A DNA stretch of 64,000 nucleotides from a virus, in IMG/VR virus record IMGVR_UViG_3300036761_003779, positions 1 to 64,000 of that record. One strand, 5' to 3'. Positions within the stretch are counted from its first letter, which is position 1, and every line of letters starts with the position of its first letter. This document shows, piece by piece, positions 5,222 to 39,941 of this stretch. The notes under the pieces were generated by a model. That model was not told where the DNA came from, searched no databases, and saw only the letters and a program-made list of their open reading frames with translations. A program made the translations under genes and the position numbers.

Positions 5222-5684
5222 TTTGAGCCTCCGTTTGTTGAATCTTCCTGAGGTGAGTCCAATGACGTTCCCCGCGCGGCCTCCGCTCCGGGTGCAGCCT
5301 GGAACCACATCGATCTCCCCGCGCAACCCGCTCTGGGTGAGTCCTCGAACCATGCCGCTCCCCACGCGCCGTCCGTCCCTTCTCCTCCCGATCCGCTACA
5401 TTCTCCGCGTGGGTCCCCGGAATCAGGTGCGCCGGGTTGCAGCAGGGCGGGTTGTCACACGTGTGGCGGACCGCCTCCGCATCCGTCGGACCAAAGGTCA
5501 GCTCGTAGGCCACGCGGTGAGCCGTCTCCTGCTTTCGGTTCCTGTAGAACCGCCCATAACCCTTCTTGATCCGGAAGGCCATCCAGGGCCAGCATGCGTC
5601 AGGTCCTCCGGATACATCCACCTTGGACCAGAAGCGTCGGGCGTCCCGCTCTCTGCGTTTGTCTTCCTTCACGTCATGCGCCAT
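5214..5684 (-). CDS. HNH homing endonuclease (free-standing), 156 aa
   Basis: A homing endonuclease of the small HNH family found in phages. The N-terminal FWSKVDVSGGPDACWPW block is followed by GYGRFYRN, AHRVAYELTFG, and the metal-binding HTCDNPPCCNPAHLIPGT core with N and D ligands downstream (HAENVADREEKGR). The tail holds about three tandem 13-residue basic units of the form RGxRHGSRTHPERxA, probably DNA contacts. The ATG has a strong AAGGAGGTGAAGAA upstream. It overlaps the endolysin end by 16 bases and the next gene start by 8, which fits a mobile insertion at a gene junction. GC content looks lower than in its neighbours. Confidence 0.88.
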   Translation of the reverse strand: MAHDVKEDKRRERDARRFWSKVDVSGGPDACWPWMAFRIKKGYGRFYRNRKQETAHRVAYELTFGPTDAEAVRHTCDNPPCCNPAHLIPGTHAENVADREEKGRTARGERHGSRTHPERVARGDRCGSRLHPERRPRGERHWTHLRKIQQTEAQSG

Positions 5685-6796
5685 TTCTTCACCTCCTTGT
5701 CCAGCGCGGCCCGCGTCCGGTTCCCGGCGTCCCCGTCCACGACCAGCTCCCGGGACCGCTGGAAGGTCCGGACGGAGGTGGTCAGCGCCTCCGCCGTCTC
5801 CACGTAGTAGCCGAGCCTGCGGAGCGCCTCCCGGACCTCGTCCGGCGTGTCGACCGCGCCCGCGACGCCCGGGTTGAAGTTCTCCAGGTCCTCCTCCGCG
5901 CGGTCCCCCTGACGCTCGGAGATGGCCCGCATCATCCAGGGCTCGTCCGAGTCCTGGAACGGGTCGTCGACGTCGTCCAGCTCCGCCAGCCAGGGGAGGT
6001 CGTCCACGTGCGTCCGGTCGTAGAGGACCGCCTCCCGGATGGCGGCCGCGTCCGGCATGTACACGCAGTCATTCTTCTGCGGGTGGAGGTTGTGGTGGCA
6101 GAGCATCCACTCCGGGCGGAGCTTCCCCGGGTACATGGCGGAGAGGTAGCGGAGGAGGACGATGACCGTGGCCACGCTCCCCCGGCTCCAGGTCTCCCAC
6201 CAGGTCCCCCGGACGTTCGTCACCTCCCCGGTGAACTTCGAGGTCCACCCCTCCGGCCACCAGTAGAAGTCGAGGTCCGCCGGGTCCGCGTCCGCCTGGG
6301 CGCGGAAGGCGTCCATCGACATCCCCTGGACGAGCGCCGGCGGCCGCCCCTTCCGCTTGGGCCACGGCCGGAGGATCCCGGCGTTCCGGACCTCCGTGCC
6401 CGCTAGGAAGCGGTTGACCCAGCCGGCGTGCCAGGACGGCTTGTCCGGCGGGACGACCTGGATCGCCTCCGCCCGGAGGTCCCGGTCCAGCTCGAGCTTC
6501 CGCCGGACCTCCGCGAAGGCCGGGTCCAGCCCGCGGGAGACCACCCAGTTGGAGGAGGCCCGCTGCTCCAGGACGAAGTGCCTGACCGTCCCCGCGAACC
6601 GCGTCCCCGCCGTGAAGTGGAGGACGTGCCCGATGGGCGCACCGTCCCGCCACGCCTCGTAGCAGTTCTTCGAGGGCCAGCGCGGGTGGACCGCCTTCAG
6701 GGTGACGCGGACCAGCTCCGCGGAGTAGACCGCCAGGCGGGCGAAGAAGTCCCGCGCCTCCGCCTGGGTGTAATGTTCCACGATCTTCTTGCTCAT
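5669..6796 (-). CDS. Endolysin: N-acetylmuramoyl-L-alanine amidase with C-terminal peptidoglycan-binding domain
   Basis: This enzyme is predicted to cut the amide bond between muramic acid and L-alanine during lysis. The Amidase_2/T7-lysozyme-like core shows HFTAG at residues 60-64 (first zinc histidine), SSNWVV near 81-86 and HHNLHPQKNDC at 234-244, where a second histidine and the final cysteine fit the zinc ligands. Residues about 310-370 (VREALRRLGYY and FQRSRELVVDGDAGNRT) look like a peptidoglycan-binding repeat. There is no signal peptide, so a holin is expected. The ATG has GAGGAGAGAAGACAA upstream and forms an ATGA overlap with the preceding gene. The core insert between 90 and 230 is long for the family. 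Confidence 0.82.
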   Translation of the reverse strand: MSKKIVEHYTQAEARDFFARLAVYSAELVRVTLKAVHPRWPSKNCYEAWRDGAPIGHVLHFTAGTRFAGTVRHFVLEQRASSNWVVSRGLDPAFAEVRRKLELDRDLRAEAIQVVPPDKPSWHAGWVNRFLAGTEVRNAGILRPWPKRKGRPPALVQGMSMDAFRAQADADPADLDFYWWPEGWTSKFTGEVTNVRGTWWETWSRGSVATVIVLLRYLSAMYPGKLRPEWMLCHHNLHPQKNDCVYMPDAAAIREAVLYDRTHVDDLPWLAELDDVDDPFQDSDEPWMMRAISERQGDRAEEDLENFNPGVAGAVDTPDEVREALRRLGYYVETAEALTTSVRTFQRSRELVVDGDAGNRTRAALDKEVKKWRMT

Positions 6797-7233: not shown

Positions 7234-7554
7234 TCACTTCCGCGTCCGTCGCCCGAAGCGCCAGAACTTCCGCGCCTCCTCGGTCCCAATGACCCTCCAC
7301 AGGTCCCGCCGGTGAACGACCGCCCGCTCCGCCCCCGCCTCGATGGCGCCGTCCCCGGTCACGTTCCGCGGGTCCACGTCCCGCCCGTCCAGCCTGCTGA
7401 TGACCCAGTACTCACCGAAGAGCGTGAGGAGGGAGCACCCCCTCAGGACCGCGTAGTCGCGCGGGTCCGCCCCCAGGAGCCCCTCCTCCGCCATGGCCAT
7501 GCCGACGATCTCCGCCCTGGACCCCGGCCGCAGCTTCACGTCCTTCAGCTTCAT
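7234..7554 (-). CDS. Hypothetical protein, 106 aa
   Basis: Unrecognised 106-residue protein, MKLKDVKLRPGSRAEIVGM at the start and a strongly basic end (RKFWRFGRRTRK). The middle contains a short hydrophobic run but no convincing membrane segment. The start is fixed by an ATGA overlap with the RlpA-like lipoprotein gene. A 24-base gap separates it from the next gene. Confidence 0.65.
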   Translation of the reverse strand: MKLKDVKLRPGSRAEIVGMAMAEEGLLGADPRDYAVLRGCSLLTLFGEYWVISRLDGRDVDPRNVTGDGAIEAGAERAVVHRRDLWRVIGTEEARKFWRFGRRTRK

Positions 7555-8531
7555 CTTCTATCCGTGATGAGCGTGGGGGTGGACCCCACCCGCGGGAGGA
7601 AGGCCAGGCGGACGCGGGAGAGCCCCCGCGGCCGACCCAGCCGCTTCCAGAGGGCCCAGGAGAGGTCCGTCACCGCCCGGAAGCGCCAGCCCTGGGGCGG
7701 CCGCGTCCGCGTCCAGATCCGCCAGCGCCCGTCCGGGACCGCGTTCTTGAGTCGCCCGGTGTAGATCCCCCACGGCCCGGCGTCCATGACGCGCGCCACC
7801 ACGCAGCGCCCCGTGGCCTCCGCGCACACCTGGACGCGCCGGCCGCAGCCGAGGCGCCGCCAGTGCCGGTGCGCAATGTGGACCTGCGCCTCCGTGTAGC
7901 GCCCGCCGCACGCCAGCTCCCCCCGGTTCCAGCCGTCCCCCGGCTTATAGACACTTAACCTCCCAACTTGAACTACTAGACCTATATCCTCCGGTAGTGG
8001 TAGACTAAGATCATGAACTACGTAACTATTACGTCTTTTCTTGAGCGAGTATCCACCGGAGAAGGGTGTTGGCTCTGGAATGGCCGAATTATGGCCGGAG
8101 GATACGGAACACTCGGGGGCGGAAAGCGCGGCGTGAGCGTCTACGCTCACCGCATGTCCTACATGCTCTTCATCGGAGAGATTCCCCCGGGTGTCTGTGT
8201 CCTCCATCGATGCGACAACCCACGGTGTGTGAAGCCAACGCACCTTTTCCTCGGGACGCAGGCGGACAACAACCGGGACATGAAGGAGAAAGGCCGCGCC
8301 CGCGGCCCGTACCTCAGAGGAGAATATCACCCAGCGGCCAAACTTCGGGACGAACAAGTCATCGAAATTAGGGCCGCGCACTCCTCCGGGGAGTCCACCC
8401 GACGGTTGGCAGAACTCTACGGTGTACGTAGAAGGCTGATCACCGAGGTTGTAGCCGGACGTACCTATATTCACGCAGCCTCCGAGCGTTAGGAGGAGGA
8501 GCGCCAGGAGGAGGGAGATCAGGGTAGCCAC
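7551..8531 (-). CDS. RlpA-like (double-psi beta-barrel) lipoprotein gene interrupted by an antisense HNH gene
   Basis: The frame encodes a lipoprotein signal (MATLISLLLALLLLTLGGC, lipobox ending at Cys19) and, at residues about 193-255, a double-psi beta-barrel of the RlpA type (SVYKPGDGW, RYTEAQVHIAHRHW, ARVMDAGPWGIY). RlpA-like proteins act on peptidoglycan or organise it. Residues 14-173 are encoded by the strand opposite to an HNH gene (8013-8492), yet no stop interrupts the frame. The composition of this stretch is more AT-rich than either flank. Either the lipoprotein now carries about 160 nonsense residues as a linker, or the gene is inactive. The frame starts at a GTG overlapping the end of the preceding gene. 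Confidence 0.6.
   Translation of the reverse strand: MATLISLLLALLLLTLGGCVNIGTSGYNLGDQPSTYTVEFCQPSGGLPGGVRGPNFDDLFVPKFGRWVIFSSEVRAAGAAFLLHVPVVVRLRPEEKVRWLHTPWVVASMEDTDTRGNLSDEEHVGHAVSVDAHAALSAPECSVSSGHNSAIPEPTPFSGGYSLKKRRNSYVVHDLSLPLPEDIGLVVQVGRLSVYKPGDGWNRGELACGGRYTEAQVHIAHRHWRRLGCGRRVQVCAEATGRCVVARVMDAGPWGIYTGRLKNAVPDGRWRIWTRTRPPQGWRFRAVTDLSWALWKRLGRPRGLSRVRLAFLPRVGSTPTLITDRR
8013..8492 (+). CDS. HNH homing endonuclease, plus strand, antisense within the RlpA-like gene
   Basis: One of only two rightward genes seen. The 159-residue product has the same architecture as the other HNH enzymes here: GCWLWNGRIMAGGYG, AHRMSYMLFIGEIPPGVC, and the core LHRCDNPRCVKPTHLFLGTQ with ADNNRDMKEKGR. The C-terminal third (LRDEQVIEIRAAHSS, TRRLAELYGVRRRLI) reads as a helix-turn-helix of the kind that follows HNH cores. 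The ATG has only a weak upstream purine tract. Codons line up exactly with those of the minus-strand lipoprotein frame, so minus-strand stops would need TTA, CTA or TCA codons here. Composition is AT-rich relative to the genome, indicating transfer. Confidence 0.85.
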   Translation: MNYVTITSFLERVSTGEGCWLWNGRIMAGGYGTLGGGKRGVSVYAHRMSYMLFIGEIPPGVCVLHRCDNPRCVKPTHLFLGTQADNNRDMKEKGRARGPYLRGEYHPAAKLRDEQVIEIRAAHSSGESTRRLAELYGVRRRLITEVVAGRTYIHAASER

Positions 8532-8725
8532 TTGTCGACCCCGGCGCGGATGTTCTGGAGCGCCGTGGCCATCTTCTCCGTGACCGCCTGGTGCTCCTCG
8601 ATCCAGTCCTTCATCCCCGTGACCTTCTCCAGGACGGACTCCTTGAAGTCCTCCGCCCGCTCCGGCAGGTCGTCCAGGTCGGTCAGGATCTCCTCGGCCA
8701 GGTCCAACGCCTCGTCCGGTTCCAT
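8519..8725 (-). CDS. Hypothetical acidic helical protein, 68 aa
   Basis: A 68-residue, acidic, fully helical protein (MEPDEALDLAEEILTDLDDL) with no recognised family. The heptad-like spacing of leucines suggests a short coiled coil. It ends 13 bases inside the RlpA-like lipoprotein frame and starts two bases after the preceding stop, so it is part of the same operon. Confidence 0.65.
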   Translation of the reverse strand: MEPDEALDLAEEILTDLDDLPERAEDFKESVLEKVTGMKDWIEEHQAVTEKMATALQNIRAGVDKWLP

Positions 8726-8726
8726 G

Positions 8727-9089
8727 TCACTCCTCCAGCAGCTTCTTGACGCGAGGCTTCATCTTAACATGCCCCGGCCGCGTTGGTCCTCTGTTAATGC
8801 GCCTTACCTCCCGCGGAGGGAGGAGCGCCCAGCCGCGGAGGTCCAGCTCGTCGACCAGGACCTCCGCCGCGCGGTGGACCGCGTCGCGCCCGGCCACCGG
8901 GTTGTCCCGCTCCACCTCGCTGAAGACCTCCTCGACGTCCTTCCAGGGGATGGCGCGCCGCGCGTCGAACACCACCCTGATCCCCTCCTTGATCCGCCGC
9001 ACGCGCCGCTCCAAGGTCTCGAGCGCCTCCAGCGCCGCCTCCAGGACGTCCTCCCGATCCGCGGCATGCAGGTCGAGCCATCTGGTCAT
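8727..9089 (-). CDS. Hypothetical protein, 120 aa
   Basis: Unrecognised 120-residue protein, MTRWLDLHAADREDVLEAAL at the start and a very basic end (RPGHVKMKPRVKKLLEE). It is helical with charged repeats in the first half. The start is fixed by an ATGA overlap with the resolvase gene upstream, suggesting translational coupling and a possible role in DNA processing, though nothing in the sequence proves this. Confidence 0.68.
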   Translation of the reverse strand: MTRWLDLHAADREDVLEAALEALETLERRVRRIKEGIRVVFDARRAIPWKDVEEVFSEVERDNPVAGRDAVHRAAEVLVDELDLRGWALLPPREVRRINRGPTRPGHVKMKPRVKKLLEE

Positions 9090-37166: not shown

Positions 37167-39941
37167 TCAGGACAGTCGGCGGAACGGGAGGGCGCGGATC
37201 CGCGCCTGGAAGAACCGCCCCTTGCTCCCCGCCGCGAGTAGCTCCGGGAGGAGCGGCCCGGCGCCCGGGTAGACGTACTCGGCGCCCTTCCTGAACCGGA
37301 CGAGGAGGTCCTCCCCGTCCCGGCGGACCGCCGCGAGGTTCTCGCTCTCGACCGCGACCCAGCCGCCCGCCGCCGACGCCGGCCCGGGCTCAGCCTCCAG
37401 CCCCCGGAGCAGCTCCGGCGTCAGCTCGACCCGCTCCCCGGCCCGCTCCGAGAACCAGGCCCGGTGCGGCGCCTGGACCGCGTTCCGGATGGCCCGGGCG
37501 TGCGACCGGAGCGGCCGGACGAGGCGGTCCCAGAAGTAGAAGTACACGGCGTCGACCTTCCCCTCGTGCCGACGCTTGAGGCGCCCGACCTGCTGCGTGA
37601 ACCGCCCCGGGTTTGCCGCCGCCGGCGTCATGCCGAAGCCGCGGTCGAGCCGCTTCACGTCCATCCCCTCGTCCGCCACCGTCGTCCCGACCGCCACGCG
37701 GAGGGTCCCGTCCTCGAGCCCCTCCGCCGTCCGGTCCTGCTCCTTCGCGTCCCGCCCGCCCATGAGGCGCCCGGCGTGGACGCCCCGCCGCTTCAGCCAC
37801 GCCTGGATCTCGAGGCACATCTCCCGGCGGTCCGCGAGGAGGAGGCACGTCCGCCCGGCGGCGATCTCCGGGAGGAGGTACTCGAGGACCCGCGCGCGCC
37901 GGCGCTCGTCCCGCGTGGCCGCGTCGAGCATCTCCGCGTAGGTGTTCAGCGGCCCCGCAAAGTGGGTCTCCTTCGCCCAGCGGCGGACCGCCGCCGTCCC
38001 CGTCTCCCGCTCCAGCCGCTCGAAGCCGGCCGCCTCCAGCTCCGCCTCCCGGTTCAGGTCGAAGGCGAAGTCCGTCGGGACCACGACCACGTCCACGGGG
38101 ACGATGCGGTTGAAGCGGTCCAGGTCCTCGTCCCGGATCTCGAAGAGGACCCGCGGCCCGCGCGCCGTCCCGCCGCCCCGCTTCGGGACGTACTCGACCC
38201 CGAAGGCGTCGAAGAACAGCGGCTCCTTCTTGTCCCGCCGGTGCGGCGTGGCGGTGGCCGCCAGCCGGTTCCGAGCCGGGAATAAACTGATACATTCCGA
38301 GAACGTAGACGCGGCGCAATGGTGCGCCTCGTCAAGTATCAGCGTCCCCCAGCGGTTCACCCAGCCCGGGTCCGCCTTGACCTTGTTCAGGACGGAGCGG
38401 ATCATCCCGACGATCAGGTCCCCGTCCCGCTTCTCCCGCCCGTAGAGGACACCGATCCGCCGCTCCGGGACGGAGAACCGCGCCGCCGCCTTCCCCACCC
38501 ACTGCCGGAGGATCCGCTCCGTGTGGCAGAGCACCAGCGTCCGCTCCCCGAGGTCCGAGATGGCCTTGAGCAGGATCTCCGTCTTCCCGGAGTTGTGATG
38601 CCAGAGACCTCCGGCCCAGTAGTTCCCAAAGACCGGGACGTTGAAGTCAAAGTACGGCTCCGCCGGGACCGCCCGCGCGGAGAGGACCCGGACGAACTCC
38701 ACTGGACCCGGGTTATAGGTCCCTGTTAAGATGGACCCACCTAGAGGTGACTCGGATGAGAGAACGCCAGATGTGGGACAAAGCGCGCCGTCAGCGAGCC
38801 GCGGAGCTGTACCGCTCCGGACTCCTCCTAGAGGAGGTGGCGTCCGCCCTTGGGACGAGTCGGAACCGCGTCCGGGAGGCGCTCCGAACGCTTGGGGTGG
38901 AGGTTCGCCCGACTGCGTTCCAGAAGGGCGGGCTGACCGGTCGGAGGAACCCGAATTGGAAGAGCGATCGCCGGGTGGATGAGGATGGATACGTCCTCCT
39001 TCGGGTCCCGGGACACCCGGACGCAAAGCCGGGGGGATGGGTACTCGAGCACCGCCTGGTGATGGAGGGTCTTCTTGGGCGCCGCCTGACCGCGGAGGAA
39101 GTGGTCCATCACCGAAACGGAGATCGAGGAGACAACCGTCCGGAGAACCTCCAGCCGTTCGACTCCAATGGAGCGCATCTTGCGCATGAGCTTCGAGGGA
39201 GGACGCCGAACTGGACGGAAGGAGGACGCCAACGGACCCTGGACGGCCTGGAGCGGTGGCGTGGAGAGCTTCATAGATCTCACGGGCGGAGAGGAAATGG
39301 TGGCCGTCCCAGAAGAGGTGTCCCGGCCTGACGCGGAAGGTCCCCACCTCCGTCTCGATCTCCACGAGCTGCGCCGCCTCGAACATCACCGGCGGGAGCG
39401 CCGCGGAGACCACGGGACCGTTCGGTCCCATTGCCCAGACGTGGAAGGGCGCGCCCTCCGCCCAGCGCTGGAGGGCGGTTACATCGCTCCCGTCCGTTGG
39501 GTCTCGAATAACGGTAGATCCGTGGATACAAGCGCACGGGCCGACGAGGATGCCGGCGCGCCGGGCGACGAGCGCCTTGGCCGCGCTCCGCTGGTCCGGC
39601 CCCAGCTCCCACTCCGGCGGGCTCCGGTAGACGAAGGGGAGCGGCCCGGTCCCGCGGACCGTCCGGTCCACGGGCTCGATCTCCGCGCCGACCCGCGCCA
39701 GGAGCCGCTGGAGGACGACCCAGCCGCCGCGCGGGAGGAGGAGGTCCTCCCCCTCGTCCAGCACCAGGCTGAGCTTCCGCGGGGTCTCCCCCGTCCAGAA
39801 GCCCATGTTCGACTTCTTCCAGAACTCCGGGTTGTCCACCTCGAACGCCTCCCGGACCTCCCGGAGGGAGAGCCCGGCGTCCTTGGCCGCGCGCTTGCTC
39901 AGGCGGAGGTGGGCGTCGACGACGACCTTCAGCTTGACCAT
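37167..39941 (-). CDS. UvsW-like superfamily 2 helicase precursor containing an intein
   Basis: After splicing the extein would be about 611 residues. It is an SF2 helicase of the UvsW/XPB type, remodelling forks and recombination intermediates. N-terminal domain about residues 1-115; Q-like WELGPDQRSAAKALVARRAG; Walker A is GPCA joined to SGKTEILLKAI across the intein; DEAH motif TLILDEAHHCAAST; motif III LAATATPHRRDKK; motif V VAVGTTVADEGMDVKRLD; motif VI RFTQQVGRLKRRHEGK. The ATG at 39941 has no Shine-Dalgarno site in the 31-base gap, unusual in this genome. A plus-strand HNH gene lies inside the intein segment. Confidence 0.88.
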   Translation of the reverse strand: MVKLKVVVDAHLRLSKRAAKDAGLSLREVREAFEVDNPEFWKKSNMGFWTGETPRKLSLVLDEGEDLLLPRGGWVVLQRLLARVGAEIEPVDRTVRGTGPLPFVYRSPPEWELGPDQRSAAKALVARRAGILVGPCACIHGSTVIRDPTDGSDVTALQRWAEGAPFHVWAMGPNGPVVSAALPPVMFEAAQLVEIETEVGTFRVRPGHLFWDGHHFLSAREIYEALHATAPGRPGSVGVLLPSSSASSLEAHAQDALHWSRTAGGSPDGCLLDLRFGDGPLPPRSGGAQEDPPSPGGARVPIPPALRPGVPGPEGGRIHPHPPGDRSSNSGSSDRSARPSGTQSGEPPPQAFGAPPGRGSDSSQGRTPPPLGGVRSGTAPRLADGALCPTSGVLSSESPLGGSILTGTYNPGPVEFVRVLSARAVPAEPYFDFNVPVFGNYWAGGLWHHNSGKTEILLKAISDLGERTLVLCHTERILRQWVGKAAARFSVPERRIGVLYGREKRDGDLIVGMIRSVLNKVKADPGWVNRWGTLILDEAHHCAASTFSECISLFPARNRLAATATPHRRDKKEPLFFDAFGVEYVPKRGGGTARGPRVLFEIRDEDLDRFNRIVPVDVVVVPTDFAFDLNREAELEAAGFERLERETGTAAVRRWAKETHFAGPLNTYAEMLDAATRDERRRARVLEYLLPEIAAGRTCLLLADRREMCLEIQAWLKRRGVHAGRLMGGRDAKEQDRTAEGLEDGTLRVAVGTTVADEGMDVKRLDRGFGMTPAAANPGRFTQQVGRLKRRHEGKVDAVYFYFWDRLVRPLRSHARAIRNAVQAPHRAWFSERAGERVELTPELLRGLEAEPGPASAAGGWVAVESENLAAVRRDGEDLLVRFRKGAEYVYPGAGPLLPELLAAGSKGRFFQARIRALPFRRLS
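38592..39530 (-). other. Intein in UvsW-like helicase (313 aa) whose central region is antisense to an HNH gene
   Basis: Residues 138-450 of the precursor, inserted in the Walker A loop. It starts with Cys (CIHGSTVIRDPTDG) and ends GGLWHHN before Ser, the normal class 1 termini. The N-terminal splicing part includes VEIETEVGTFRVRPGHLFWD (block B-like His) and the C-terminal part YFDFNVPVFGNYWAGGLW (block F). Between them about 190 residues are low-complexity Pro/Gly/Ser-rich sequence, which is the antisense reading of the HNH gene at 38756-39331. No sense-strand endonuclease motif is present. The frame has no stop. Confidence 0.85.
38756..39331 (+). CDS. HNH homing endonuclease, plus strand, antisense within the intein
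   Basis: A 191-residue HNH enzyme with its own Shine-Dalgarno site (AGAGGTGA, five bases before ATG). Residues about 14-45 form a helix-turn-helix (LLLEEVASALGTSRNRVREA). The HNH core is LEHRLVMEGLLGRRLTAEEV followed by VHHRNGDRGDNRPENLQPFD at 117-136. The last dozen residues (NGGRPRRGVPA) are antisense to the intein block B region, so the gene end has adopted intein DNA. A plus-strand TGGACC and TAAGAT pair with an 18-base spacer lies just upstream and may be a promoter. It belongs to a different HNH subgroup from the other four. Confidence 0.88.
   Translation: MRERQMWDKARRQRAAELYRSGLLLEEVASALGTSRNRVREALRTLGVEVRPTAFQKGGLTGRRNPNWKSDRRVDEDGYVLLRVPGHPDAKPGGWVLEHRLVMEGLLGRRLTAEEVVHHRNGDRGDNRPENLQPFDSNGAHLAHELRGRTPNWTEGGRQRTLDGLERWRGELHRSHGRRGNGGRPRRGVPA

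Follow-up and report, generated by a model that had tools for sequence, protein, structure and literature searches.

The analysed window, 64,000 nucleotides of a 105,878-bp virus record of 70% GC, carries an HNH endonuclease gene inserted antisense in a small gene for a double-psi barrel (DPBB) protein, and the host frame stays open throughout. On balance this is probably a homing endonuclease gene whose insertion is tolerated as a disordered linker of ~160 residues in an exported or membrane-anchored DPBB protein. As an earlier note on this DNA had described, the host frame (7551-8531, minus strand) runs from a GTG start through 326 codons without an internal stop, and the HNH gene (8013-8492, plus strand; ATG start, 159 aa) is nested antisense within it, the codons of the two strands lying exactly in register. 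The order of parts given there is likewise confirmed: a hydrophobic N-terminal arm (VATLISLLLALLLLTLGG, 8478-8531, minus strand), predicted to act as an export or membrane segment, is followed by a linker read from the antisense strand of HNH and then by the DPBB domain (PGDGWN..., 7554-7943, minus strand), conserved in six relatives. The arrangement is real and uncommon; its parts are known and their combination is unusual.

HNH gene, host protein and insert-free relatives

The HNH protein matches Pfam HNH_3 (PF13392) at 43.5 bits (cut-off 24.8, E 2.4e-11) and PHROG endonuclease families down to 5e-31. Its nuclease core (AHR..LHRCDNPRCVKPTHLFLGT..N, 8139-8276, plus strand) is intact, with AHR, H-C-D-NP-C, H and N in place and every column that is invariant among nine aligned sequences present, and its C-terminal end also aligns with the relatives. 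At 58% the GC content of the gene is far below the 70% of the genome, and the insert has not yet taken on the codon usage of the phage. A promoter scan recognised none for the HNH gene.

That the gene is an insertion follows from six related phage loci (L008, L017, L018, L028, L030 and L031) that carry the host gene without it. These encode the host protein as 144-178 aa, compared with 326 aa here, and in all six the hydrophobic N-terminal segment is joined directly to the conserved GRLSVYxPGD-type segment (xGRLSxYxPGD). In the nearest relative, L008, the host gene is a single 178-aa ORF in the same gene order: a RuvC-like gene, small genes, a 68-70 aa gene, the host gene, a 106-aa gene, a 138-145 aa gene and the amidase. 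In our window the corresponding neighbours, all on the minus strand, are a 68-aa gene (8519-8725; conserved in L008, L017 and L018) that overlaps the host start, a 106-aa gene (7234-7554; conserved in L008 and L017) and a conserved Amidase_2-like protein with a peptidoglycan-binding domain (5669-6796; cell-wall lysis). The host GTG occupies the same position in L017 and L008, and the codons of the arm are mostly GC-rich and phage-type. The window thus contains an insertion of ~480 bp between the N-terminal hydrophobic segment and the DPBB domain, which supports the earlier claim that an HNH gene has been inserted and the host frame left open.

The HNH gene is present in one allele and absent at the same site from six related genomes, the pattern sought for a homing gene. 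As neither the six host relatives nor the surroundings of 87 HNH relatives yielded the insertion a second time, homing and a donor allele are what we infer. The sole candidate for another copy, L054, in which a long antisense frame extends to either side, was rejected as the shadow of a plausible opposite-strand gene. The searches recovered no relatives of the host gene among cultured phages or in bacterial or archaeal genome contigs. In L030 (2374-3393), an AT-rich phage, the same DPBB gene stands in another setting, directly after a deoxynucleotide kinase-like gene.

The host product had been called an RlpA-like lipoprotein. Its fold stands; the remainder of the name is doubtful. Pfam DPBB_1 scores the family at 13.1-18.9 bits, under the cut-off of 28.8, and by sequence the host profile gives only a weak lead to one solved structure, PA4485 (4avr). 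The fold search later supported this lead: the L008 protein as modelled by AlphaFold (mc0bcf1b48ce1, pLDDT 73.5) matches 4avr with Z 12.1 and 1.9 Å over 93 residues at 29% identity, followed by kiwellins, expansins and many other DPBB chains, so that assignment of the host domain to the DPBB fold, shared with these proteins and with the RlpA domain, is well supported by modelling. In contrast to the DPBB proteins and RlpA, the phage protein is anchored by a minimal N-terminal segment, shows no SPOR domain in Pfam scans and scores below threshold for DPBB_1, and for RlpA every family search stays under the cut-off. The lipoprotein label is doubtful, because the supposed lipobox, LTLGGC, sits exactly on the insertion junction and its N-terminal cysteine is absent from all six relatives.

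In the AlphaFold model of the whole 326-aa frame residues 16-184 fall below pLDDT 50 and the DPBB domain is retained. Compared with L008 the domain has a dN/dS of about 0.24, indicating purifying selection, most of which presumably predates the insertion. The in-frame start codon closest to the domain precedes GRLSVY by about 60 codons; internal initiation would therefore not restore the normal protein.

Junctions of the insert

On the left (8463-8477) the junction zone comprises the HNH C-terminal codons TYIHA. Read from the other strand, the HNH codon for Ala155 becomes TGC, the codon of Cys19 in the 326-aa frame. Since HNH relatives terminate at ..WxH(V/A) and here the frame continues as ASER before a TAG that is itself the antisense of a host CTA leucine codon, the HNH ORF probably runs at its end into host sequence, residues ~A155-R159 together with the stop deriving from host DNA.

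The right junction zone (7944-8012, minus strand) is an AT-rich stretch. Its first part, 7944-7970, encodes the host-homologous QVGRLSVYK in codons rare for the phage (TTA, AGT, TAT, CAA), with a mean log relative adaptiveness of -1.90 over the nine codons, where the remaining codons of the domain average about -0.19; only 18 of 17,997 nine-codon windows in the gene calls of the genome are as low or lower, and phage codon usage resumes sharply at 7943. The simplest reading of this break is that 7944-7970 is a probable co-conversion tract, flanking host sequence brought in from a donor allele of higher AT content. The free-standing endonucleases of T4 are documented to leave such tracts (PMC2988022), and L030 shows that AT-rich phages bear the host gene. 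Alternatively, the AT-rich tract could have been selected as a control region for HNH.

An 8-bp direct repeat, ACCTATAT, flanks the insert (shuffle P 0.02), with one copy at 7980-7987 (plus strand) and the other at 8463-8470 (plus strand) inside the HNH codons TYI. The copies are 483 bp apart and in frame, so that a repeat-bounded insert would measure 483 bp, which we treat solely as a lead.

Taking co-conversion as the likelier source of the tract, we suggest that a free-standing-type HNH gene entered the small DPBB gene antisense and in frame, near the phage's cell-wall amidase gene. The most likely route is break-repair recombination in which a phage allele richer in AT and already bearing HNH served as template, the repair also swapping a short run of host codons to the right of the gene. 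The insert is a multiple of three, occupies the one antisense phase that chanced to be free of stops and sits in the linker between anchor and domain. The host gene would then still be translatable, as a predicted 326-aa protein with an unstructured linker of ~160 residues, and the insertion may have persisted through a survivorship filter for this reason.

Openness of the antisense host frame

The HNH gene has none of the codons TTA, CTA and TCA among its 159 codons in the host phase, as against 8 in each of the other two phases. The earlier note had held that the gene must avoid these codons for the host to stay open, and had suggested selection to keep the host gene translatable. Among the 87 HNH relatives, which are not independent of one another, the count of the three codons declines as GC3 rises, and it is zero in three of the 25 free-standing relatives at GC 0.55-0.62 and in two of 19 at GC3 0.58-0.72. 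A negative-binomial fit puts the probability of a zero count at 0.09-0.11, and a null conditional on the amino acids and the codon usage of the relatives gives P = 0.073. The missing stops are thus largely what base composition and the reading alignment would give, and since avoidance is not clearly above composition, the outcome that the note itself had named as refuting, the claim of codon-level selection is not supported.

Openness as a whole is a different matter. At this GC 4% of relative-by-phase combinations are open, and with a factor of one third for a length in frame, which assumes a uniform length phase, a random antisense insertion would be both open and in frame with a probability of about 1.3%. 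For this reason an open frame is improbable without some filter. A filter at the level of the insertion, by which only in-frame and open insertions are kept, would suffice and fits better than selection codon by codon. It accounts for the data with no need of ongoing selection on codons.

An alternative view, which we regard as unlikely, is that the host gene has been inactivated, the insertion being recent and the open frame a by-product of composition, register and luck. In its favour, 72% of 159-codon windows in the gene calls of this genome are stop-free in the same antisense phase, the HNH gene itself would be stop-free with P about 0.07-0.11, the still foreign codon usage of the insert implies that it is recent, and long antisense open frames are known to arise as a statistical effect (PMC3454372). 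However, phase and length must match as well (the ~1.3% above) with the AT-rich 7944-8012 included, and the sole other intragenic HNH gene in the window also keeps its host open.

Ongoing selection against TTA, CTA and TCA within HNH, keeping the host open codon by codon, is less probable again. In its support none of the 20 leucine and serine codons of the gene ends in A, though 20% of its third positions are A, and a crude null built on base frequencies at the third positions of the gene, the only one to come out low, gives 0.0066. Against it stand the zero counts in three of 25 GC-matched free-standing relatives, the amino-acid-conditional null of 0.073 and three AT-richer free-standing genes (L059, L094 and L109; GC 0.42-0.47) that have zero TTA, CTA or TCA in the matched region and no antisense host ORF around them.

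Removal of the insert before or after translation, as an intron or intein that leaves a normal host product, is very improbable: the other antisense HNH gene of the window does sit in a probable intein, but no Rfam match to a group I or II intron was found at E<=1 in 7500-8800, the 326-aa frame aligned with the empty site lacks intein-type junctions (N-terminal Cys/Ser and C-terminal His-Asn motifs), and the empty-site protein of the relatives gives no clean splice point. A genes-in-pieces arrangement at 7551-8531 was also rejected, the locus holding a single 326-codon ORF in place of two separate host ORFs.

A second antisense HNH gene and its bearing on homing

The earlier note counted two independent cases in the window. 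A second does exist, an HNH gene at 38747-39331 (plus strand) inside an SF2 helicase gene (37167-39941, minus strand), with no stop in the host phase; the two cases are not alike, as this HNH gene is part of a probable intein and its codon phase differs from that of 8013-8492. The Walker A region of the helicase is interrupted between A137 and S451 by 313 aa (C138...N450), and the helicases of three related phages are uninterrupted at this site. By inspection the interruption has an intein pattern, starting CIHGSTVIRD and ending WAGGLWHHN, and is probably an intein; Pfam gave no intein match in the helicase. Here the open frame would truly be required to make the host protein, and the surrounding probable intein could self-splice, unlike the insert in the DPBB gene. 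The helicase case, in another phase and by another mechanism, supports the view that an antisense insertion survives only if the host frame remains open.

Homing endonucleases usually spare their host by an intergenic, intron or intein location. Keeping the host gene translatable from the strand opposite the insert would, if true, add another such option, and a single event could then give rise both to overlapping antisense genes and to new protein linkers; with two such arrangements in one genome, the idea is testable. We advance only tentatively the fuller proposal that the antisense strand of an active HNH gene, once translated, forms a structural linker within a functional envelope protein of the phage and that, with the helicase case, antisense in-frame insertion is a general route into host genes that needs no splicing element. 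If the antisense strand is translated, one stretch of DNA encodes a nuclease in one direction and part of the host protein in the other. The open-licence literature yielded no precedent for an endonuclease gene lying antisense within an intein or a host frame that stays open.

The closest known systems differ in this respect. The HNH genes mobA-mobE of T-even phages encode a nuclease with a separate C-terminal DNA-binding region and vary in presence between related phages (PMC2988022). The gene at 8013-8492 resembles them in its HNH nuclease with a C-terminal DNA-binding region, in variable presence and in the co-conversion expected; the T4 mob genes, however, are listed as mostly intergenic, whereas this gene is inside a host ORF, antisense, with the host frame open. 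In the genes-in-pieces of phages, such as the split nrdA of Aeh1 and the mobA-associated topoisomerase split, an endonuclease gene likewise lies in a phage gene that can remain functional (PMC2988022), but the host is made as two polypeptides, while here a single ORF continues unbroken across the endonuclease gene on its antisense strand.

The probable helicase intein with its opposite-strand HNH gene is possibly more striking than the insertion in the DPBB gene. HNH_3 genes were absent from the three related phage records checked (two of ~100 kb and one of 75 kb); the present record contains seven, at 5397, 10820, 13541, 102518 and 105223 on the minus strand and at 8139 and 39050 on the plus strand.
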